A DNA stretch of 64,000 nt, from IMG/VR virus record IMGVR_UViG_3300030339_000026, positions 1 to 64,000 of that record, one strand, 5' to 3'. Shown in pieces: positions 21,944-60,513 of the stretch. How positions within the stretch are numbered: position 1 is the first letter of the stretch; each line of letters begins with the position of its first letter. The translations under genes and the position numbers were made by a program. The notes beneath the pieces are model-generated. The model ran no database searches. It was not told where the DNA came from and saw only the letters and a list, made by a program, of their open reading frames with translations. Source of the stretch: a virus.

Positions 21944-21961
21944 ATTTATTCTATCATTTTG

Positions 21962-22034
21962 CACCCTTGGTAAGACTCGAACTCACACTTACAAATTTTG
22001 AAGATTTGTGTGCTAACCATTACACTACAAAGGT
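21962..22034 (-). tRNA. tRNA-Trp(UCA), UGA-decoding suppressor tRNA
   Basis: 73-nt cloverleaf read directly. Acceptor ACCTTTG/CAAGGGT (7 bp, one G-U). D stem GTGT/GCAC with loop AATGGTTA. Anticodon stem CAAAT/ATTTG with loop CTTCAAA, giving anticodon UCA after U33. Variable loop TAAGT. T stem GTGAG/CTTAC with loop TTCGAGT. Discriminator G; CCA not encoded. The loop matches a bacterial tRNA-Trp loop (CTCCAAA) with C34 changed to U, and A37-A38 and G73 also fit Trp. It would read UGA (and UGG by wobble) as Trp, explaining the in-frame TGA codons. Probably co-transcribed with the gene at 22064..22492 from the -7 box at 22517. Confidence 0.96.
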
Positions 22035-27495: not shown

Positions 27496-27753
27496 AGATG
27501 ATTATTTAAAAAAATATTTGGGTTGATTGAGAGTAAACGAGCACTGACAACGACTCTCAACCACTCCAAAAATAATCCCAATAATCATTCCAACCAAATT
27601 TTACATTGAAAACCCTACATATGACAAAACATATTTGGATTGATTATGTAATATTATTAACAGAGTGCATATTGTAACAATTCAGTTACAATAGATTTAT
27701 ACAATTGGTATAAGTTTAGGTCCTACGCGATGCTCAAACTCAAAAACATCATA
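27496..27753 (+). other. Non-coding structured stretch with AAACTCAAAA leader
   Basis: 258 nt without a gene. Hairpins: GGTTGATTGAGAGT...ACTCTCAACC near 27530-27560, ATTGTAAC...GTTACAAT near 27677, and TTATAC...GTATAA near 27698. It ends with AGTTTAGG, a short segment, then TCAAACTCAAAA, the same stem I and leader sequence as the four hammerheads but without their catalytic core; it may be a ribozyme relic or a different self-processing leader. Confidence 0.45.
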
Positions 27754-28047
27754 ATGAAAACATCTGAAGAAAATGCTAAATTAGTTATATCATGTGTTAA
27801 TAATATCATATCAAAAGAAATTGATTCTTTTAGTAAAATTGAATTAACAAAAATTTTAAAAGAAACTAAATGTCCTTATTCGTCAAGTATATTTAATCTT
27901 CTCAAATCTTGTGAATTAATCACAAATATATCACGAGGTAAATATATATTTACTACAACTCAACCAATATATTATGGAATTATTCAAAAAGAACTTGATA
28001 AAGCTATGAAAATGCAACAAGTTTATAATCATAATTCTAAAAAATAA
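27754..28047 (+). CDS. Hypothetical, possible winged-helix protein
   Basis: 97 aa from MKTSEENAKLVISCVNNIIS (an earlier ATG at 27730 lies inside the leader). The pattern SKIELTKILKETKCPYSSSIFNLLKSCELITNISRGKYIFT looks like a small wHTH with a beta-wing. Possibly a regulator in the right arm. Follows the AAACTCAAAA leader. Confidence 0.62.
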   Translation: MKTSEENAKLVISCVNNIISKEIDSFSKIELTKILKETKCPYSSSIFNLLKSCELITNISRGKYIFTTTQPIYYGIIQKELDKAMKMQQVYNHNSKK

Positions 28048-28116
28048 AACAATATATATTATTCATTTAAGTAATTTTGAACGTTGGTATTAGTCATTGT
28101 AAAATGATAACATACA

Positions 28117-28206
28117 ACTCAGCTAGAGAGAGTATAACATTGGTTTCCGATGAGATCTAGACGAAACGAGAGAATAAGAGGAAACTCTAAAACTCTCGTA
28201 AAACTC
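28117..28206 (+). ncRNA. Hammerhead-type element A (core U4 to C)
   Basis: 5' hairpin ACTC/GAGT (28117-28133) with loop segment CTAGA, which pairs with TCTAG (28156-28160) in the stem II loop. Then stem I GTTT (28143-28146), core CCGATGA, GAAA at 28163-28166, stem III ACGAGAG...CTCTCGT (28166-28199), A17, and stem I return AAAC. Predicted cleavage after 28200. The core has C where U4 is invariant, so activity is doubtful. Located 16 nt upstream of the ATG at 28222. Confidence 0.72.
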
Positions 28207-28221
28207 AAAACACATATCACA

Positions 28222-28320
28222 ATGAATAAAACTGTATATTTAGCATCATCTAGTGATGCACGTCACACATTACACAAAGTTTATAAATCTTATAAACCAG
28301 GTAATAATGGAAAAAATTAA
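28222..28320 (+). CDS. Small ORF (32 aa) behind hammerhead A
   Basis: MNKTVYLASSSDARHTLHKV to TAA at 28320. The ATG is at the expected distance from the AAACTCAAAA leader, as for the genes behind the other hammerheads. Basic C-terminus; overlaps the following gene's start by 14 nt. Function unknown. Confidence 0.5.
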   Translation: MNKTVYLASSSDARHTLHKVYKSYKPGNNGKN

Positions 28321-28582
28321 GGTTGATTTCAAATCACAAACTTTAGAGATTATATCTAATATAACTGTAAAAGAGTTATTAGCTATTACAAATGCTGTTG
28401 ATCTTTCAAGTTTTACAATAATTAGTTCAATAAATAAGCTTGAAATTACAGGTGTTAGAACTGAATCTGAGAATATTATAATTCTTAAGAGTCTAGGTTA
28501 TTATACAAATAAAGTAATTGCTGAAAAACTTGGATTAAGTGAACGAACAGTTTATCGTAAACTAAAAGAATTAGGTATTTAA
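28307..28582 (+). CDS. Small HTH regulator
   Basis: 91 aa from MEKIKVDFKSQTLEIISNIT. The C-terminal 30 residues form a clear helix-turn-helix: YYTNKVIAEKLGLSERTVYR followed by KLKELGI, like LuxR/Fis-type ends. The N-terminal half is mixed. Likely binds DNA near the right-arm leaders. A hairpin (GAGTCTCC...GGAGATTT, 28595-28629) follows the stop. Confidence 0.72.
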   Translation: MEKIKVDFKSQTLEIISNITVKELLAITNAVDLSSFTIISSINKLEITGVRTESENIIILKSLGYYTNKVIAEKLGLSERTVYRKLKELGI

Positions 28583-28646
28583 TCACACACTTTTGAGTCT
28601 CCGAAAGCCGTAAGGTGATTAGGAGATTTATTAAACTTATTAAATT

Positions 28647-28874
28647 ATGATAATAACAATTTATCTCATTGGAATTCCGTTATTCCCATTCATTATTATG
28701 CTTTTCACAAAGTTCTTTCCAAATGTTTTAGAATGTGATGATCCTGCTGATTATGCATTGGGTTATGGAATGATGTCATTATTTTGGCCATTTGTATTAT
28801 TTGTTGCATCAATAGGTATAATCTATTATAAGTTTTATCAAATGATAAATACTATAGATAAACATAAAAAGTAG
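28647..28874 (+). CDS. Small membrane protein, two spans
   Basis: 75 aa, MIITIYLIGIPLFPFIIMLF. Two hydrophobic spans (residues 2-22 and 46-65) separated by an acidic loop, then a basic tail (DKHKK), stop TAG. The second span FWPFVLFVASIGIIYY has a homologue in the broken gene at 29242 (SLIWPIGLIIMAIF), which makes the two paralogues. Confidence 0.72.
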   Translation: MIITIYLIGIPLFPFIIMLFTKFFPNVLECDDPADYALGYGMMSLFWPFVLFVASIGIIYYKFYQMINTIDKHKK

Positions 28875-28887
28875 CAATACTCTCTCA

Positions 28888-29053
28888 TAAACATAATTGA
28901 AAAAATCATTAGATCTGATGGTTTTTAGTACGGTACAGATATCCCGGGTTCAATTATGTTTACTTTCATAAAAGACTTATGATTTGATTAACCGTCGTCC
29001 GACGGTGTTGCATACGGTGCATAATAGTCCGGAGCCTATCATGAGTCTTTTTT
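28888..29053 (+). ncRNA. Structured non-coding RNA with two long-stem hairpins, ends as terminator
   Basis: First stem TAAACATAATTGAA (28888-28901) pairs perfectly with 28949-28962. Second stem AAAGACTTATGAT (28971-28983) pairs with ATCATGAGTCTTT (29038-29050) and is followed by T's, enclosing a CCGTCG-TC-CGACGG hairpin and a TGCATACGGTGCA hairpin. No coding frame. It may be a terminator with extra domains or a small trans-acting RNA. The 28875-29148 stretch holds nothing else that I can identify. Confidence 0.6.
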
Positions 29054-29148
29054 ACAATATACATTCCTCATCAGTCTGTATTTCTTTCTAATTATCATTA
29101 TTTCTATCCCAACTATATTTAGTATTACAGTGATGTAAGAACAATATG

Positions 29149-29226
29149 ACTCAGCCTAGGAGAGTATAACATCAGTTTCTGAAGAGACTAGGACGAAACG
29201 GGGAGCTCATCACTCCCGTCAAACTC
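29149..29226 (+). ncRNA. Hammerhead ribozyme B (type I)
   Basis: 5' hairpin ACTC (29149-29152)/GAGT (29162-29165) with loop CCTAG that pairs with CTAGG (29188-29192) in loop II. Stem I AGTTT (29174-29178), core CTGAAGA (29179-29185), GAAA at 29195-29198, stem III ACGGG...CCCGT (29198-29219), C17 at 29220, stem I return AAACT. All invariant core bases are present. Predicted cleavage after 29220, leaving a 21-nt leader before the ATG at 29242. Confidence 0.85.
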
Positions 29227-29241
29227 AAAAACTTATTTATT

Positions 29242-29453
29242 ATGATAACATTAATCATTATTTATATTATTGGATTAATATTATGTCCAATATTATTACT
29301 TGTATTAGAATATAATTTTCCTGGTAGTATGTATTTAAATAACGGTCAAAATATCGGAGCATTTTTACAACATCATTAATTTGACCAATAGGTTTAATAA
29401 TAATGGCAATATTTTTATTTGATCATATTGCATCTAATATTCATAAAAATTAA
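29242..29453 (+). pseudogene. Small membrane protein with -1 shift at T5 run, TGA=Trp
   Basis: Frame 0 gives 45 aa (MITLIIIYIIGLILCPILLL to GAFLQHH-TAA). A -1 shift at the five T's at 29362-29366 instead gives GAFFTTSLI-W(TGA 29382)-PIGLIIMAIF and a TAA at 29451. This aligns with the intact paralogue at 28647 (MMSLFWPFVLFVASIG). So the full gene needs one more T (or a frameshift) and TGA read as Trp. Either a sequencing or natural homopolymer deletion, or programmed slippage. Confidence 0.7.
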
Positions 29454-29457
29454 TCAA

Positions 29458-29640
29458 ATGCTAAACATAATATTAATTACAATCGTTATCATTTTAATAG
29501 TGGTAATGGTTGCAATTTTAGTAGCTCTTATAGTTGATGTATTTACATACTTTAAATTACCAAAGATATGTATATTATATGGTATTATAATACTATTATT
29601 AATTGTTAACATTGCTATTCATTTAGAAAAATCAGTTTAA
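29458..29640 (+). CDS. Small membrane protein, two spans
   Basis: 60 aa from MLNIILITIVIILIVVMVAI. Two hydrophobic spans (1-26 and 36-53) with a short FTYFKLPK loop. Part of a run of small membrane proteins and lipoproteins between 28647 and 31083. Ends TAA one base before the next ATG. Confidence 0.62.
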   Translation: MLNIILITIVIILIVVMVAILVALIVDVFTYFKLPKICILYGIIILLLIVNIAIHLEKSV

Positions 29641-29641
29641 A

Positions 29642-29911
29642 ATGAAATTAAAAATCTTTATTATTAATATTGTTGTAGCAATAGTATTAATTGTTTCTTT
29701 TACTGCATGTAATTCTCAATCAAGAAGACATGCTCCAGTATTATCAAAAACTTACACAATAACTTACAAAGGATATCTTTCTGGTAAGTTTCTAAAACGT
29801 TCTACATTCATTAGTGCTCGTACTCCAATTGAAGCTGTACAAATACTTAAAGAACAAACGTTTGTTGGATTCGATAGTATTAGTGTTAACTCAATTAGAC
29901 CTAAAGAATAA
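29642..29911 (+). CDS. Lipoprotein
   Basis: 89 aa. Signal peptide MKLKIFIINIVVAIVLIVSF with lipobox FTAC (Cys about 23). The mature part (TYTITYKGYLSGKFLKRSTF, then ISARTPIEAVQIL) is a small alpha/beta domain. The TAA overlaps the next ATG. Exported to the envelope of the infected cell; function unknown. Confidence 0.75.
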   Translation: MKLKIFIINIVVAIVLIVSFTACNSQSRRHAPVLSKTYTITYKGYLSGKFLKRSTFISARTPIEAVQILKEQTFVGFDSISVNSIRPKE

Positions 29912-30183
29912 TGATTAAAATTATTGTTAATATTATTGTAATAGTTTTGGTTATTATTCTTTTACGAGTATTAACATCTTGTGAAGCAAGAAGTGGGCAT
30001 ATGCATCAAGCTACAAAACCCACAATTGCTACACAAGTTGAATCAATAACTAAACCAAAACATAAATTGGTTTACACATATTACATCACACACATTAAAT
30101 CTCGGGATAAAATCAAGGTTTATGTGTATGATGATGATATAACATCGTACGAGTATCCAATTGATAAATTTAAAATCAAATAA
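29911..30183 (+). CDS. Lipoprotein
   Basis: 90 aa. Hydrophobic N-terminus with lipobox LTSC (Cys about 24: LLRVLTSCEARSG). The mature domain (HKLVYTYYITHIKSRDKIKV) resembles the preceding lipoprotein in size and strand pattern, so the two could be diverged duplicates. Start overlaps the previous stop. Confidence 0.73.
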   Translation: MIKIIVNIIVIVLVIILLRVLTSCEARSGHMHQATKPTIATQVESITKPKHKLVYTYYITHIKSRDKIKVYVYDDDITSYEYPIDKFKIK

Positions 30184-30185
30184 TC

Positions 30186-30353
30186 ATGATAATATTATTA
30201 TTACTTTTATTATGTTTCGATATATTTCTAACAAGAAAATATTATATTGAAAAAGATCTTACAGGTGTATTACTTGGAGGTTTTGCGTGTGGATTTATAA
30301 TGTGTGGGATTGTACTTATGTTGTGTATTAAGTTTCACATTCCATTACAATAA
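30186..30353 (+). CDS. Small membrane protein
   Basis: 55 aa, MIILLLLLLCFDIFLTRKYY. Two hydrophobic spans with a charged turn (RKYYIEKDLTG). It resembles the product at 30940 (LSLCLAFDIFMGLI, then a charged turn, then a span), so likely a paralogue. Begins 2 nt after the previous stop and ends 2 nt before the next start. Confidence 0.58.
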   Translation: MIILLLLLLCFDIFLTRKYYIEKDLTGVLLGGFACGFIMCGIVLMLCIKFHIPLQ

Positions 30354-30355
30354 TC

Positions 30356-30649
30356 ATGGTACTATTCTTATTAATTGTTGGATATTTATTATCCATTGTT
30401 CTGTGTAGTGTCTTATATAGAATTGCATCTCCGAAGTATTTAGATATATTTAGTAAATATGAAGCTGAATGTGATTTTATGTGGTTTATTCCTGGAATAA
30501 ATACATTAATAGTGATATTTATGATTGGATTATTATTAATTGTTTTTATCTGTATGTTATGCGATAAACTCATAAAAAGAGTTCGCTTTAATATCCGATT
30601 TAAATGGTTAGATAATTTCATCACCAAATTTAAAAATGAAGATCTATAA
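30356..30649 (+). CDS. Membrane protein, two spans
   Basis: 97 aa, MVLFLLIVGYLLSIVLCSVL. A second span GINTLIVIFMIGLLLIVFIC lies mid-protein, then a basic tail (RFNIRFKWLDNFITKFK). Similar in plan to the 56426 product (FIPIINTLGVCFFMYMLI) and the 54991 product. The TAA overlaps the next ATG. Confidence 0.66.
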   Translation: MVLFLLIVGYLLSIVLCSVLYRIASPKYLDIFSKYEAECDFMWFIPGINTLIVIFMIGLLLIVFICMLCDKLIKRVRFNIRFKWLDNFITKFKNEDL

Positions 30650-30768
30650 TGTTAACTAAAACTCAAGCAATAGTAATTTGTTTATCACCGTTCTTAATCT
30701 TCTATTTATTTGTAGAATTGTGTGCAATGTTTATATCAATAGAATGTAAAATCAAAAAACATGACTAA
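30649..30768 (+). CDS. Small membrane protein (39 aa)
   Basis: MLTKTQAIVICLSPFLIFYL: one hydrophobic span preceded by a TKT motif. The next gene also starts with TKTEKTLLYIAPWIIFYLLG, so these are tandem paralogues. Overlaps its neighbours by 1 and 8 nt. Confidence 0.55.
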   Translation: MLTKTQAIVICLSPFLIFYLFVELCAMFISIECKIKKHD

Positions 30769-30940
30769 AACTGAAAAAACTCTATTATACATTGCACCAT
30801 GGATTATCTTTTACTTGTTAGGTTCATTTATTGGACTACAATTCAATATTATCAAATGGCAAGAAGAATCACGAATGGGATATGTAATGCTTTCTTTACT
30901 TATTGATTGTGGAATATTAATGTTTAAATACATAAGCTAA
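30761..30940 (+). CDS. Small membrane protein (59 aa)
   Basis: MTKTEKTLLYIAPWIIFYLL, one N-terminal span and a weaker second span (YVMLSLLIDCGILMF). Paralogue of the preceding 39-aa gene at its N-terminus. Stop overlaps the next start (TAATG). Confidence 0.55.
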   Translation: MTKTEKTLLYIAPWIIFYLLGSFIGLQFNIIKWQEESRMGYVMLSLLIDCGILMFKYIS

Positions 30941-31083
30941 TGGTAATTATACTCAGTCTATGTTTAGCATTTGATATATTTATGGGATTAATATGTTTTG
31001 ATAAAGAAAATCATATTATGTCGCATTTATATGCTGCCGCAGCTGGATTTTTATTAGCTGCAATTATTGTAAATATACTTTAA
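30940..31083 (+). CDS. Small membrane protein (47 aa)
   Basis: MVIILSLCLAFDIFMGLICF, then a charged turn and the span AAAAGFLLAAIIVNIL. Similar in plan to the 30186 product. Last of the uninterrupted small-membrane-protein run; a long non-coding stretch follows. Confidence 0.55.
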   Translation: MVIILSLCLAFDIFMGLICFDKENHIMSHLYAAAAGFLLAAIIVNIL

Positions 31084-31089
31084 ACTCTT

Positions 31090-31636
31090 AGCATCAAGCA
31101 ACTTTCATCAGATAAACGGTTGGATATGTATATTCTCTATATAATAACGTTATAAATAATATAATCTCTTATATAAGAAGCATATCTGAATAACTAATCA
31201 AGAAGAGATTCAGTATGGTGGTTTGATGCCTTTAAACAGTATAATACTAACTGCAAATAAGTATAATGAAAACCTGTGCGCAATCCTCCGATGAAAGTGT
31301 GGAACTTCCGAGTGTAAGGTATAACGGCTATATGTACAAATAGCATCCATTCTGTCAATCCTTGAAGACAAATTAATAAAAGATAGGTATACTAAAACCG
31401 ATGCCGTGCTAATTGCTGGTGTCAAAAACAAGCCAACGTAATATCGTCCTGAAACTGGCTATGGGAGCAAAAGGGTGAAGCTCTTTATTACGAAAGAATG
31501 CTTCCCGGTTAGATTCACCGATTTTATCGGTGATGTACCGCGAAGTAAACAATGGTTATCATATTAATTTTGATAACAAACACTAAGGGAGTACACATCG
31601 TCGCATTTGGACATATAGTGTGTACTCTCTTTTTTA
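31090..31636 (+). ncRNA. Large candidate structured ncRNA (about 550 nt)
   Basis: No credible gene on either strand between 31084 and 31724, although base composition is less AT-rich than in the coding neighbours. Local hairpins are dense, such as CACCGATTTTATCGGTG (31523-31539) and long near-inverted repeats around 31130-31190. The stretch ends in a strong terminator (31587-31636), which suggests that it is a transcript. Not recognised as RNase P, tmRNA or rRNA. Size recalls the large phage RNAs ROOL and GOLLD, but I cannot match their consensus by eye. Confidence 0.5.
31587..31636 (+). terminator. Rho-independent terminator ending the ncRNA
   Basis: GAGTACACA (31589-31597) pairs with TGTGTACTC (31619-31627) and is followed by TCTTTTTTAT. 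Hammerhead C begins directly after it. Confidence 0.85.
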
Positions 31637-31639
31637 TTA

Positions 31640-31708
31640 ACTCAACCAGTAGAGTATAAAATAGTTTCTGATGAGACTGGACGAAATATGTTTAAACATA
31701 TCAAACTC
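31640..31708 (+). ncRNA. Hammerhead ribozyme C (type I)
   Basis: 5' hairpin ACTC/GAGT (31640-31655) with loop CCAGT pairing ACTGG (31676-31680) in loop II. Stem I AGTTT (31663-31667), core CTGATGA (31668-31674), GAAA at 31683-31686, fully palindromic stem III ATATGTTTAAACATAT (31686-31701), C17 at 31702, return AAACT. Perfect consensus core. Cleavage after 31702 would leave a 22-nt leader for the ATG at 31725. Confidence 0.9.
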
Positions 31709-31724
31709 AAAAACAAATAAGATT

Positions 31725-31901
31725 ATGTCAAAAACTAAATCAATCATCGCCATAACAGGTAACAATGTAAAAGTAGAAATAATATCAGGTTTAACTCCAA
31801 GACAAGCAGCTTATCAAAGAAGAGAGCTTGCTACATCCGAAGAAAACTTTGATATGTTAGGTAAAACATGTGCAATTTATCGTACTAAAACTTGTAAGTA
31901 A
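31725..31901 (+). CDS. Small hypothetical protein behind hammerhead C
   Basis: 58 aa from MSKTKSIIAITGNNVKVEII; an upstream in-frame ATG at 31671 lies in the ribozyme core and is not used. Contains SGLTPRQAAYQRRELATSEE. Function unknown. The TAA overlaps the next ATG. Confidence 0.65.
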   Translation: MSKTKSIIAITGNNVKVEIISGLTPRQAAYQRRELATSEENFDMLGKTCAIYRTKTCK

Positions 31902-31978
31902 TGAAACTATTTAAAGCTATTGCTATTGTAATAATGTGTGTGTCAGTTGGATTATTTATCTTAACACTATTTAAATAA
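31901..31978 (+). CDS. Very small membrane protein (25 aa)
   Basis: MKLFKAIAIVIMCVSVGLFI: one membrane span with a basic start. Start and stop overlap those of both neighbours (TAATG junctions), which supports translation. Confidence 0.48.
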   Translation: MKLFKAIAIVIMCVSVGLFILTLFK

Positions 31979-32172
31979 TGCATATCACATTCGAACCCGC
32001 ATTTGGAGTATTGTTGATTGTTATCGCTCATACAATAATAACCCATTTATTTAATTGGTTACATCGTGTCGTACTTAAAGAATTCGAGATTTTCGTAATA
32101 TTTATAGGATTATTTCATTTTTGTGAAGTAATGTTTGTATTTGCTATGTTAACCGGTCTTTATTTAAAGTAA
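31978..32172 (+). CDS. Small membrane protein
   Basis: 64 aa, MHITFEPAFGVLLIVIAHTI, two spans (8-26 and 40-60). Last gene of this short operon, followed by a terminator hairpin. No family recognised. Confidence 0.6.
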   Translation: MHITFEPAFGVLLIVIAHTIITHLFNWLHRVVLKEFEIFVIFIGLFHFCEVMFVFAMLTGLYLK

Positions 32173-32180
32173 ACTCTTTC

Positions 32181-32220
32181 GAGTTTCCAAACCATAGAAA
32201 TATGGGGAGGAAACTCTTTT
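32181..32220 (+). terminator. Terminator with GAAA-capped inner hairpin
   Basis: GAGTTTCC (32181-32188) pairs with GGAAACTC (32209-32216) and is followed by TTTT. Inside lies CCATAGAAATATGG, a hairpin with a GAAA tetraloop. A similar nested design occurs at 55710-55750 (CCGTAGAAATACGG). The 100 nt between this and the next gene hold an AGTGTG/CACACT-closed stretch. Confidence 0.65.
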
Positions 32221-32321
32221 AATCTAATTAGTGTGTAAGATAGGTACATTAGGTGTACGCGCTACAGTTGGTAATTCTTATAAAAGGTGCAACCTTTCAC
32301 ACTTATTTCAAAACTTAAAAT

Positions 32322-32630
32322 ATGAATAAAATTACATTAAATAAAAGTTATGAATGTGATATATTAATTAGAGTATATGAATCACAAAATCCAAATGTAC
32401 CTGAAAGTGATCAAATTGTAGGTGAAGTTTTATTTAAAGATAAACCTCATATTAGAGCATCTGCTTGGCTTCCAAAAGGTATTGCTGAATTTATAAATTC
32501 TGAACTATTAAAAATAGAAGATAAAAATTATAATATTCATATTTCTAATGAATTACCATATCAAGTTGGAGTTCTCACTTCATGTAAAGAAAATTTTGAT
32601 TTATATATGAATAAATTATTAAATAAATAA
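32322..32630 (+). CDS. Hypothetical protein
   Basis: 102 aa, MNKITLNKSYECDILIRVYE. Mixed alpha/beta; contains a single TGG Trp (ASAWLPKGIAEF). Very AT-rich. No recognised family. First gene of a short operon with the following membrane protein. Confidence 0.66.
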   Translation: MNKITLNKSYECDILIRVYESQNPNVPESDQIVGEVLFKDKPHIRASAWLPKGIAEFINSELLKIEDKNYNIHISNELPYQVGVLTSCKENFDLYMNKLLNK

Positions 32631-32637
32631 AAACAAA

Positions 32638-33126
32638 ATGGATTATATTAAACTCTTTTATTGGCTCACAGTAGTCGATGGTTTCAAACATGTACTTTTA
32701 GGAGTATTAATTATCTTCGGAATTCTTTTAGCACTCAATGTTATATTGAAGCTGGTTTCATTTATCGAAAGTGATGAAGATTTAAATGATCGTTGTAGTA
32801 AACCTTTACGTTGGATAATTCCAATATTCTCAATTTGTTTACTTGCTCATGCATTCATACCAAGTAAAAAAGATACGTTGTTAATCATTGGTGGTGGAAC
32901 TGCTATGAATTATGTTACAACTGATTCAACATGTAAACAAATTCCTAAAGAACTAAGTACATTTGTTATATCCGAATTAAAAGCAATGTCTGCGGATGCT
33001 AAAACAAGCTTAGGTGTTGTCGATCAACAAAATAAATTACTTGATGAAGCCAAGAAAATGTCTTCTAAAGAACTCATTGAGAAAATGAAGAATGATACAT
33101 CATTTGCTAAAATTCTCTTAAAATAA
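32638..33126 (+). CDS. Membrane protein with soluble C-terminal domain
   Basis: 162 aa, MDYIKLFYWLTVVDGFKHVL. Two spans (about 18-40 and 62-80), then a hydrophilic helical domain with repeated lysines (KAMSADAKTSLGVVDQQNKL). It resembles phage proteins of this plan that sit in the inner membrane; function unknown. Followed by a strong terminator. Confidence 0.7.
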   Translation: MDYIKLFYWLTVVDGFKHVLLGVLIIFGILLALNVILKLVSFIESDEDLNDRCSKPLRWIIPIFSICLLAHAFIPSKKDTLLIIGGGTAMNYVTTDSTCKQIPKELSTFVISELKAMSADAKTSLGVVDQQNKLLDEAKKMSSKELIEKMKNDTSFAKILLK

Positions 33127-33214
33127 TTAAGCCATAGTTAGTATTTGTAAATTTTTATTGGATTTATACAGAACATTGTGAAATGTGAAGTATATTAGTA
33201 TTATTATTTGATTT

Positions 33215-33250
33215 AAACGCAGCGGTTATAACGTCCGCTGCGTTTTTATT
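33215..33250 (+). terminator. Rho-independent terminator
   Basis: AAACGCAGCGG (33215-33225) pairs with CCGCTGCGTTT (33235-33245) with a short loop, then TTATT. Lies just before hammerhead D. Confidence 0.93.
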
Positions 33251-33252
33251 CA

Positions 33253-33316
33253 CCTCATCCAGAAGAGGCTAAAAAGTTTACTGAAGAGGCTGGACGAAAC
33301 ACATTATGTATAAACT
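33253..33316 (+). ncRNA. Hammerhead ribozyme D (type I)
   Basis: 5' hairpin CCTC (33253-33256)/GAGG (33265-33268), a compensated version of ACTC/GAGT, with loop TCCAG pairing CTGGA (33290-33294) in loop II. Stem I AGTTTA (33275-33280), core CTGAAGA (33281-33287), GAAA at 33296-33299, short stem III ACA/TGT with a 5-nt loop, A17 at 33310, return TAAACT. Predicted cleavage after 33310, 21 nt before the ATG at 33332. Confidence 0.82.
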
Positions 33317-43355: not shown

Positions 43356-45512
43356 ATGTTAAATTTTAACAAACAACTTCAAGCCCAACTTGCACTAATG
43401 TGTGAAGTGGGTAAACTTTTCAGGTCTGAAATGACGGGTGATCAAGTGTGGGATTTATATCTCAAATCATTTGAAGATGATCCTATGTTTAGAGATCCGG
43501 AAAGTTCTGAACACAATTGTAATTTGTGTAAGAATTTCCTTCGTCGTTACGGTAATATCGTAGCAATCACACCAGCTAATGGAATTCTTTCATTATTTGA
43601 TTTTGAAGGCCCTGGTGAATTCTTACCTGTAACAATCGCGTTGTCTGCTGCTTTAAGTAAAGCTCCAATAGCAAACATTTTCACGGAAACGTATGATGAA
43701 TTGAATTCATTACCTTATGAACAATGTAAGAAAACTCTTACTAAGTTTCGTTTAGGTATTGACAAAAACGATAAACGTTATACCAGAGAAGAAGCTGAAA
43801 AATTCGGTGTTGTTAAACCTAACGAAGTAGTTACATTCAATCATATGCACCTGGATATTCCAGCTATGTATGTTGATAAGACTGGTAAGTCAAGTGCAAC
43901 AATTATGGCTGATTTCAGATCTTCGAAAGAAGTATTTGAACGCGCCATGCAAGAAATTCACATTGATACATTGAATCTTGTAAAAGATTTGATTATTCAA
44001 GGTTCATTACTTGATGGTCAAACACATTTGTATAAAGTTGAGCAATTCATACCTTTGAAAAAAGAATATGATGCTCTTGCTGCTAACAAACGTGCTGCAT
44101 GGTGTTGGATAAAATCTTACAATTTACCTATTGCAAAATTCAGAAATGAGTTACTTGGAGTGTTATGCTCGGAGTTATCAGAAGGTAAAGAGTTAAATGC
44201 TGCTGTCCAATCTTGGAACAAACGTGTTGATCCGGCTAACTATATGAAAGCTGTCGCACCTATTACTAAGAAACAAATTGAGGAAGCTCAAAAGTTTGTG
44301 GAAAATAACGGATACACTGAATCGTTTAATCGACGTTTTGCAATTCTCGACGACATCAAAGTTGCTGAAATTCTCCATAGTAATGTAGGTGATGGTAGTA
44401 TTCCATCTGTATCAATTTTTGATTCTGTTAAACCGGCTGTGTCAACTCGTCACAAACGTAGCGAGTTTGATGATGTTAAAGAAGTATCTATTGAATCATT
44501 TATGAAGGATATCCTTCCTGCTTGTATATCAGTTGAAGCTTTCTTAGCAAACAATCACGGTGGTAATATGGTGTCATTAACTACTGCTAATAATCCGGAT
44601 TCTAAGTCAATATTTAAATGGGATAACAACTATAGTTGGACGTTCAATGGTAATTTAGCTGGTAAATCTCAGTTACGTGAAGCAGTTTCTGCATCAGGTG
44701 GTCGTGTTGATGGTGTATTTCGTTTTAGTCATTCTTGGAATGAACTAGAACCTAATCAATCATTAATGGATTTACATGTATTCATGCCTGGTAATTCTCA
44801 TCGTGCCGATGATATTGTTCATAATACATATGGTTCTGGACGACGTGTTGGTTGGAATAATCGTACTGATAGTCAATCTGGTGGCGTTCAAGATGTTGAT
44901 TATACTTCAGCAGCCCCAGCAGGATATATTCCTGTTGAGAATATTACTTTTCCTGACATTAACAAAATGCCAGAAGGTAAGTATATTTGTAAAATTCATA
45001 ATTGGAATTTTAGAACAACAGGTGGTCGTGGTAAAGCAGAAATTGAATTTGATGGAGAAATCTTTCAATATGAATATCCTGCAACTAAATGTCATCAATG
45101 GGTTACTATTGCTGAAGTTACATTGAAAAATGGTAAATTTACTATTGATCATAAAATTGAACCAGTTAATGGTTCAAGAGAACTTTACAATATACAAACC
45201 AATGAATTTCATAAAGTAAACTTAGTTTGCTTGAGTCCGAATCATTGGGGAGATAATAATGTTGGAAACAAACATTACTTCTTCATGTTAGACAAATGTA
45301 AATCTCCATCTTCTATTCGTAGTTTCCACGCAGAGAACTTAATACCTGAATTAGCAGAACATCGTAAAGTACTTGAAGTATTGGGTAACACCACTATGAT
45401 AGCACCGGCAGATAAGCAGTTATCTGGTTTAGGTTTCAATGCAACTGTTCGTGATGAACTTATTGTCAAAGTACAAGGTTCATTTAAACGTATGCTTAAA
45501 ATTAAGTTTTAA
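43356..45512 (+). CDS. Large conserved-type phage protein with YfaP-like beta domain
   Basis: 718 aa, MLNFNKQLQAQLALMCEVGK. The N-terminal 400 residues are helical with a Cys cluster (EHNCNLCKNF). Residues about 470-590 resemble the DUF2135/YfaP pattern: LMDLHVFMPGN, GGVQDVDYTS, PVENITFPD, MPEGKYICKIHNWN, so a secreted-type beta sandwich embedded in a phage protein. I do not know a function; similar long proteins occur in large phages. Good codon quality suggests strong expression. Trp all TGG. Confidence 0.78.
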   Translation: MLNFNKQLQAQLALMCEVGKLFRSEMTGDQVWDLYLKSFEDDPMFRDPESSEHNCNLCKNFLRRYGNIVAITPANGILSLFDFEGPGEFLPVTIALSAALSKAPIANIFTETYDELNSLPYEQCKKTLTKFRLGIDKNDKRYTREEAEKFGVVKPNEVVTFNHMHLDIPAMYVDKTGKSSATIMADFRSSKEVFERAMQEIHIDTLNLVKDLIIQGSLLDGQTHLYKVEQFIPLKKEYDALAANKRAAWCWIKSYNLPIAKFRNELLGVLCSELSEGKELNAAVQSWNKRVDPANYMKAVAPITKKQIEEAQKFVENNGYTESFNRRFAILDDIKVAEILHSNVGDGSIPSVSIFDSVKPAVSTRHKRSEFDDVKEVSIESFMKDILPACISVEAFLANNHGGNMVSLTTANNPDSKSIFKWDNNYSWTFNGNLAGKSQLREAVSASGGRVDGVFRFSHSWNELEPNQSLMDLHVFMPGNSHRADDIVHNTYGSGRRVGWNNRTDSQSGGVQDVDYTSAAPAGYIPVENITFPDINKMPEGKYICKIHNWNFRTTGGRGKAEIEFDGEIFQYEYPATKCHQWVTIAEVTLKNGKFTIDHKIEPVNGSRELYNIQTNEFHKVNLVCLSPNHWGDNNVGNKHYFFMLDKCKSPSSIRSFHAENLIPELAEHRKVLEVLGNTTMIAPADKQLSGLGFNATVRDELIVKVQGSFKRMLKIKF

Positions 45513-50815: not shown

Positions 50816-50855
50816 GGATGCTATGGGATCACGATTCTATAGCATCCTCGTTTTA
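50816..50855 (+). terminator. Rho-independent terminator
   Basis: GGATGCTATGG pairs with CTATAGCATCC and is followed by TCGTTTT. Just after the 717-aa gene. Confidence 0.85.
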
Positions 50856-50920
50856 ACTCCACTAAGGGAGTATAAAGTTATTAAGCTTAGTGCGTTACAC
50901 AATTCGTGTAGGTTAAACAC
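50856..50920 (+). other. Hammerhead-related leader without catalytic core
   Basis: Same 5' layout as the hammerheads: ACTC/GAGT hairpin (50856-50871) with loop CACTAAG pairing CTTAGTG (50886-50892), then TACAC...GTGTA stem and GTTAAACACAAAATG. But CTGANGA and GAAA are absent. Probably a decayed ribozyme or a related, different RNA. 16 nt upstream of the gene at 50937. Confidence 0.55.
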
Positions 50921-50936
50921 AAAATGATAAAAAGAA

Positions 50937-51299
50937 ATGTATGATGTAACAAATTTAGTAGAGGTTATTAAATTAGCCCATGAATGTGAAACCCCAATTG
51001 ATGAATTCACATTATTAGTTGAAAAAGAATTAACAAAACTTCACCCAATTAAACATGAAGAACGAAAATCAGAAGAAGCATTAGGTATTCGTGATTTACG
51101 TAATGTTTTACCACAAGGTGAATTTGCCGGTAAACTTTCAGTTGCCGTTGAACAAATTGAAAAAACAATGACCAAACGTGAAACTGCGTATGCATTAGTT
51201 TGTTCAATTGCACAAATAACAAAAATATCACAACATCCACTTGTTAAAATGATTATGAAATCACAACAAGAAGATGGTGAAGATTTTAGAGATGAATAG
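50937..51299 (+). CDS. Paralogue family protein (TKRE family, copy 1)
   Basis: 120 aa, MYDVTNLVEVIKLAHECETP. Shares with 51726 and 55803 the pattern E-x-E-L, a K-x-x-P-x-x-H motif (LTKLHPIKHEER), an acidic-leucine centre and A-x-E-x-I-E-K-T-x-T-K-R-E (VEQIEKTMTKRETAYALV). Stop TAG. Helical, cytoplasmic; function unknown. Confidence 0.68.
   Translation: MYDVTNLVEVIKLAHECETPIDEFTLLVEKELTKLHPIKHEERKSEEALGIRDLRNVLPQGEFAGKLSVAVEQIEKTMTKRETAYALVCSIAQITKISQHPLVKMIMKSQQEDGEDFRDE

Positions 51300-60106: not shown

Positions 60107-60513
<407 letters not shown>

Follow-up and report, generated by a model that had tools for sequence, protein, structure and literature searches.

Predicted pseudoknot hammerhead ribozymes and a pistol ribozyme in the small-gene leaders of a phage of about 200 kb

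The window analysed here comprises 64,000 nucleotides (nt) of viral DNA (IMG/VR record IMGVR_UViG_3300030339_000026, positions 1 to 64,000) and belongs to a virus record of 74,921 bases. Four elements resembling hammerhead ribozymes, designated A to D, each lie in front of a small open reading frame (ORF). They are located where a first-pass annotation of the DNA had placed them (28117, 29149, 31640 and 33253), and all four match RF03152, the Rfam family of the RAGATH-1 hammerhead or pseudoknot (PK) hammerhead, whose gathering score is 56.3 bits. This hammerhead form is said in other papers to have been identified by Weinberg et al. in 2015. The elements and the ORFs that follow them, with lengths in amino acids (aa) and with scores and E-values for the 74,921-base record, are:

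28116..28205, plus strand: PK-hammerhead-like copy A; RF03152 36.2 bits, E 7.0e-6 (match 28116-28186), under the gathering score
28222..28320, plus strand: ORF after copy A; 32 aa, ATG 21 nt past the predicted cut
29148..29225, plus strand: PK hammerhead copy B; RF03152 59.4 bits, E 5.5e-11, over the gathering score
29242..29379, plus strand: ORF after copy B; 45 aa, ATG 21 nt past the predicted cut
31639..31707, plus strand: PK hammerhead copy C; RF03152 67.6 bits, E 8.5e-13, over the gathering score
31725..31901, plus strand: ORF after copy C; 58 aa, ATG 22 nt past the predicted cut
33252..33315, plus strand: PK hammerhead copy D; RF03152 50.0 bits, E 6.4e-9, under the gathering score
33332..33478, plus strand: ORF after copy D; 48 aa, ATG 21 nt past the predicted cut

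The Rfam covariance search that the first-pass annotation had proposed thus places B and C above the curated cut-off and leaves A and D below it, and the E-value of copy A is just 0.026 when the 64-kb window is scanned against all of Rfam. None of 14 control genomes matched RF03152. Copy D was assigned to RAGATH-1 by its other features, and copy A was kept only as a relative. The ORFs after C and D have no PHROG match at E-values up to 0.1.

The catalytic core had been read as CTGANGA in every copy. An intact CUGANGA ... GAAA core is indeed present in B (CTGAAGA), C (CTGATGA) and D (CTGAAGA), but copy A reads CCGATGA ... GAAA; the rest of the hammerhead reading, with its type I layout, covarying loop-loop pseudoknot and position in mRNA leaders, stands. 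Cleavage is predicted at 28200/28201 in copy A (GTA^AAACTC), 29220/29221 in B, 31702/31703 in C and 33310/33311 in D (GTA^TAAACTC), which would give 5' ends at 28201, 29221, 31703 and 33311. Stem III of copy A (CGAGAG/CTCTCG) exceeds the stem drawn by Rfam in length. The stem of the 5' hairpin, helix IV, changes from ACTC/GAGT in copy A to CCTC/GAGG in copy D, bearing out the covariation noted earlier.

The loop of helix IV can form five pairs with loop II in each copy, and the four combinations first listed (CTAGA/TCTAG, CCTAG/CTAGG, CCAGT/ACTGG and TCCAG/CTGGA) are all present. Since the RF03152 model draws these loops unpaired, the contact provides an independent test of the assignment. The test set comprised 32 RF03152 matches, namely those of 28 of 30 loci plus the window's four, with cis copies and half-elements (see below) pooled; two loci, L057 and L059, were excluded as copies of the same phage. 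Loop pairs were counted directly, without use of the MAFFT alignment, since its loop gap was out of register. Helix IV is present in 31 of the 32 matches and yields 20 distinct loop pairs. All 20, spelled in 17 different words, are complementary by at least 4 Watson-Crick bases, whereas re-dealt partners paired in a mean of 5.0 of 20 cases (maximum 13) and reached the observed mean pairing length in 0 of 2000 trials.

Closure in cis, that is, formation of stem III and stem I around the U-H site, was scored against shuffled downstream sequence. Shuffles did as well in 0/200 cases for A and for B, and p values were 0.01 for C and 0.015 for D. Across 29 curated cis copies (four from the window, one from a contig of a metagenome-assembled genome, MAG, and the others from viral records), closure at p<=0.05 was found in 27.

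The hammerhead cuts would leave the leader AAACTCAAAA, and a further ribozyme of the pistol class, described below, would leave AAACACAAAA, 20-22 nt before the ATG. The cut-to-ATG distances in A to D are 21, 21, 22 and 21 nt, so that the common leader about 20 nt before each ATG, proposed in the first-pass annotation, is confirmed as a sequence feature. The sequence AAACNCAAAA occurs at 16 places on both strands of 211,411 bases of the phage. Seven of these lie 18-23 nt upstream of an ATG that starts an ORF of 30 aa or more, and five of the seven are predicted ribozyme products. The seven places are those of the four hammerheads, the pistol ribozyme, a leader at 27736, and a minus-strand place in a 213-kb record of the same phage, G024 (L087:17352), where the leader has no known ribozyme and its first bases overlap the stop codon of the upstream frame. 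The two additional elements within the window are:

50856..50917, plus strand: pistol ribozyme; RF02679 41.6 bits, over the gathering score of 34.5
27655..27753, plus strand: leader of another kind; ends in AAACTCAAAA (27736) with an ATG at 27754, and has no hammerhead core

The pistol ribozyme is presumably cut at G50912^U50913, a position placed by homology. Such a cut would leave TTAAACACAAAA together with a 120-aa ORF whose ATG is at 50937. Its 5' hairpin and linker (ACUC..GAGU AUAAA) resemble those of the hammerheads. Pistol matches were found in 2 of 40 records searched, both of this phage.

Like copies B and C, the leader at 27655-27753 contains AAACTCAAAAAC, and a 14-mer, TCAAACTCAAAAAC, is common to the 27736 place, B and C (three matches in the window, against 0.01 expected from shuffles). 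Its predicted fold resembles a three-way junction, with GAGU/ACUC, a bulge UCAA, GCAU/AUGC and two hairpins; the stability of this fold is moderate (z -2.07; 6 of 200 shuffles equally stable). No credible Rfam match was obtained for it, the search at E<=10 returning just two minus-strand matches of 12.7 and 8.9 bits. Identification as a twister-sister ribozyme was rejected: in a comparison by eye with the conserved L1 and SL4 residues given in the part of PMC5660989 available, and with a construct sequence, the likeness holds for GCUC^A but fails at A8, at G9 and in the SL4 loop, and there is no Rfam match. The 27736 place may be either an unrecognised ribozyme or simply a duplicated leader. 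Elsewhere, a PK hammerhead in another locus (L015, 7570) has a hairpin inserted between helix IV and the linker and a cis closure of p=0.055; it would leave ACACTCAAAA, close to the leader of the window, 19 nt upstream of an ATG.

Several of the ribozymes directly follow strong hairpins:

31585..31631, plus strand: terminator-like hairpin, 14 pairs, loop of 19, then TTTTATTA; 7 nt before copy C
33215..33245, plus strand: terminator-like hairpin, 11 pairs, loop of 9, then TTATTCAC; 6 nt before copy D
50816..50847, plus strand: hairpin GGATGCTAT/ATAGCATCC, then TCGTTTTA; T-rich tail; 8 nt before the pistol ribozyme

The hairpins before C and D are missing from a simple terminator scan because the loops in that scan were limited to 8 nt. 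Among the 29 cis copies, 11 have a hairpin of at least 10 pairs ending no more than 12 nt upstream of the ribozyme (in 7 of these, four or more of the 8 bases that follow are T); such an upstream hairpin, whatever its tail, occurs at 2.1% of random positions and at 3.1% of intergenic-like ones. On the downstream side, an ORF of 30 aa or more starts with an ATG 19-31 nt past the cut in 15 of the 29, and the background for an ATG at 15-35 nt is 8.3% of 6000 random and 4.6% of 1005 intergenic-like positions.

Taken together, B, C and D are probably cis-acting, pseudoknot-stabilised type I hammerheads in the leaders of small genes of this phage, with A a relative whose core has changed. The direct support consists of sequence, pairing potential, covariation across the family, position and the shared leader. 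In the proposed mechanism, the helix IV loop would pair with loop II and so take the place of the usual stem II. A cut following the U-H site would then separate an upstream RNA, with the ribozyme at its end, from a downstream mRNA with a 5'-OH, whose A-rich leader of 21-22 nt would begin (U)AAACUCAAAA. With terminator-like hairpins 6-8 nt ahead of C, D and the pistol ribozyme, the RNA that is cut probably arises by read-through; for C and D the precursor would most likely be such a read-through product or a long polycistronic message, from which each downstream gene would receive one defined 5' end, and the pistol ribozyme would do likewise at a fifth gene. Judged from sequence, catalysis is to be expected in B, C and D and is doubtful in A. 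The benefit to the phage might lie in uniform 5' ends, in translation or in stability, and the elements could then be regarded as the "coordinated" mRNA-processing system suggested in the first-pass annotation.

Several observations weigh against this interpretation. Core position 4 is changed in copy A, which consequently lacks CUGANGA. Because two other records carry the same CCGATGA, a one-off sequencing error cannot explain it. In hammerheads, a change at this core position reduces cleavage without necessarily abolishing it; copy A may thus be weak, slow or inactive. Stem III of copy D is very short, at 3 pairs counting the A-U pair at the cut. Neither A nor B has an adjoining hairpin of at least 10 pairs. 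Two of the seven leader places (27736 and L087:17352) have no known ribozyme, part of the shared leader is stem I itself, and the leader may be partly shared by descent because A and B (70% similar) and C and D (78% similar) look like duplicates. Since 14 of the 29 cis copies have no such ATG at 19-31 nt, leader-making appears common but not universal; moreover, curation of the 29 was manual, and some of them are not independent of one another. Finally, DNA, protein and pattern searches for a diverged relative of the locus returned only two near-identical records.

The main rival to read-through is a promoter inside or just before the hairpin, from which each operon would be transcribed separately; the ribozyme would then remove no more than a short 5' piece, converting a triphosphate end into a 5'-OH end or serving as a timed switch. 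Such promoter-proximal self-trimming is possible although on the whole unlikely. A σ70-like site (TACACA, 16 nt, TATAGT; 9/12) does overlap the hairpin before copy C, and the lack of an adjoining hairpin at A and B would fit a promoter as well. However, promoter-like sites are no commoner within this region than in shuffles (94; mean 100.4, sd 9.5) and the σ70-like pattern may not be that of the host, while other loci, too, have strong hairpins immediately upstream of the ribozyme (11/29 overall).

Alternatively, the elements could be selfish or decaying repeats, spread by duplication and with no current role. The similarity within the pairs A/B and C/D, the changed core of A and the weak stem III of D are what such repeats would exhibit, but the pseudoknot and stem III vary between copies and yet remain paired, the leader is conserved, as is its spacing from the ATG, and a ribozyme of another class stands in the same layout; this reading is improbable. 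Also improbable is the release or circularisation of RNA between two copies (e.g. 31083-31637) in place of mRNA leader formation: a stable RNA does lie between B and C (31083-31640; z -2.98, 0/100 shuffles), but this RNA finishes in a terminator-like hairpin of its own upstream of copy C, all cuts fall 21-22 nt upstream of an ATG, and Perreault et al. detected no spliced or circular products in the cases for which this is described in the available part of their paper (PMC3088659).

Processing of phage transcripts by hammerheads has been put forward before. Perreault et al. (2011) proposed that hammerheads cut phage transcripts into gene-length mRNAs, and reported a halovirus hammerhead 13 nt upstream of a helicase start, with a transcript 5' end mapped no more than 3 nt from the cut (PMC3088659, in part). 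As in the clustered prophage hammerheads and the HHphage elements of haloviruses HF1/HF2 described there, several ribozymes flank genes in the window and the same processing is proposed; unlike those cases, here all match RAGATH-1, the leader is shared, two adjoin terminator-like hairpins and a pistol ribozyme occupies the same layout. The architecture itself belongs to a named Rfam family with a crystal structure (Zhan et al. 2024, PDB 8YDC) that displays the fold of the class and is accompanied by activity assays (PMC11300833, in part). With that class the copies share the helix IV hairpin, an AUAAA-type linker and a pseudoknot replacing stem II (PMC11300833), as well as the CUGANGA and GAAA core, a closed stem III, an open stem I and a U-H cut. 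They depart from typical RAGATH-1 in that A and D score under the curated cut-off, the core of A is changed, and four copies and one leader occur in one phage. A likeness between the PK hammerhead and pistol folds has also been published (PMC11300833). The pistol ribozyme of the window (RF02679) is like the PK hammerheads in its 5' stem ACUC/GAGU, AUAAA linker and placement, and differs in its catalytic core and, according to the available text of Zhan et al., in its general acid.

Thus the class, the pseudoknot, the pistol likeness and mRNA cutting are already in print (PMC3088659, PMC11300833, PMC4604425, PMC10085705, each in part), and clustered-hammerhead transcript processing was proposed in 2011. 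The new detail is a pistol ribozyme in the same layout as hammerheads within one phage. This arrangement was not found reported in the accessible portions of the open-access literature, a scope that leaves many subscription papers outside. In the portion of PMC10085705 available, the reason for the association of ribozymes with phage genes is called unknown; five predicted ribozymes of two classes, with a near-identical leader and ATG distance, offer "uniform 5' end production" as a directly testable answer.

Other viral loci contain a second arrangement of the same fold. Fifteen half-elements retain helix IV, the pseudoknot and the core:

Half-elements: L005, L008, L025, L029, L032 (two), L033, L035 (two), L038, L040, L042, L048, L130, L214

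A sixteenth, at L246 1957, stands outside the statistics, as do L247, L249 and L250, which like it were found afterwards; L012, L029:9772 and L035:1474 were removed as chance matches, and L223 is a repeat of L214. Within 150 nt, a cis site reaches p<=0.05 in just 2 of the 15 (L005 and L029), versus 27 of the 29 cis copies. Nine start no more than 31 nt from where an ORF of 40 or more codons stops, although some of these ORFs are short. In 14 of the 15 a terminator-like hairpin starts within 75 nt, mostly directly behind the short arm, and the one without is the first of the tandem pair in L035; this loose rule also captures 39% of random positions and 14 of the 29 cis copies. A scan using just helix IV and the linker gave 12 matches, one of them cut by the contig end; L131, which runs off its contig, was excluded from the core count. 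The core is present in all 11 complete matches, 10 of which are half-elements, and the arms of these 10 have mean identities of 41% and 31%.

A kept core with varying arms is the pattern expected of a trans-acting ribozyme, and the half-elements are candidate trans-acting hammerheads. They would be 3'-untranslated-region or small-RNA-like elements whose variable arms choose the target, probably a host RNA; if they do act in trans, they would be natural counterparts of engineered trans-cleaving hammerheads. Against this, the half-elements are related to one another and, by eye, some arms are able to pair together. Targets in their own contigs, sought for 13 elements with 40 arm shuffles, gave 0/40 for L040, 2/40 for L048, 3/40 for L038 and at least 5/40 for the other 10; for 10 elements with 150 shuffles and another scoring, p was 0.013 for L040, 0.073 for L038 and at least 0.127 for the other 8. 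Given the many tests, there is no clear target excess in these contigs, which counts against phage self-targeting. The loop motif TTGCTTGTGAAAGTAG was rejected as a hallmark of half-elements, being a general terminator-like motif: among the matches listed it occurs in at least 115 distinct contexts (at least 120 stretches), at least 91 with a stem of at least 4 pairs and at least 81 of these with a T-rich tail. The wider proposal that the PK-hammerhead fold is a natural trans-acting ribozyme in phages, and that 27655-27735 is a sixth self-cleaving element of another class with the same leader, is at present rather doubtful.

Matches to RF03152 were found in 31 of the 44 records searched. Setting aside the two records of this phage, four copies occur in one record, two in each of five and a single copy in 23. 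Two strict patterns gave 0 and 1 matches in cellular genomes; the sole match of one of them (L245, 7567) is a PK hammerhead on a contig labelled as a Rickettsiales MAG, perhaps a phage contig. On the reversed strand of L092, a second hammerhead that looks like type III (CTGATGAGTCGC..GCGACGAAA), recognised by eye at about 1620-1680, follows a PK hammerhead and precedes a gene starting MKTSELKSGYM, like the genes after the ribozymes in L020 and L034.

The phage is represented by near-identical records. G024 and the window record do not differ anywhere in the 10,000 bases compared; a third record has 1 difference in 9,204 bases, outside the ribozymes. The ends of G024 repeat each other (L082 and L089; e.g. 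L082:4539 and L089:17845), which puts the probable genome length at about 205 kb. A search of G024 with RF03152 gave four matches, copies A to D; an Rfam scan of 147,411 bases from the rest of the record found 18 tRNAs and nothing else over the gathering score. For one protein (window 43356-45512), the closest named relatives are in an uncultured 462-kb phage (62.6% identity) and in the Cellulophaga phages phi17:2 (59.3%) and phi4:1 (49.7%). Because of these Cellulophaga phage relatives, the host is likely a member of the Bacteroidota. Genes for RNR, a GroEL-like protein and glutathionylspermidine synthase are also present.

Further structured RNAs are seen in the window. The stable RNA of about 550 nt at 31083-31637, which ends in the terminator-like hairpin directly before copy C, matches no Rfam family over the cut-off. 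Structured intergenic RNAs with a terminator-like hairpin also lie at 32173-32323 (z -3.32, 0/200 shuffles) and, as judged by eye, at 28880-29056. A tRNA called Sec (TCA anticodon) is located on the minus strand at 21961-22034, and a phage-carried transfer-messenger RNA gene at 60107-60513 encodes the tag GNKTISFARTAFMAAA.

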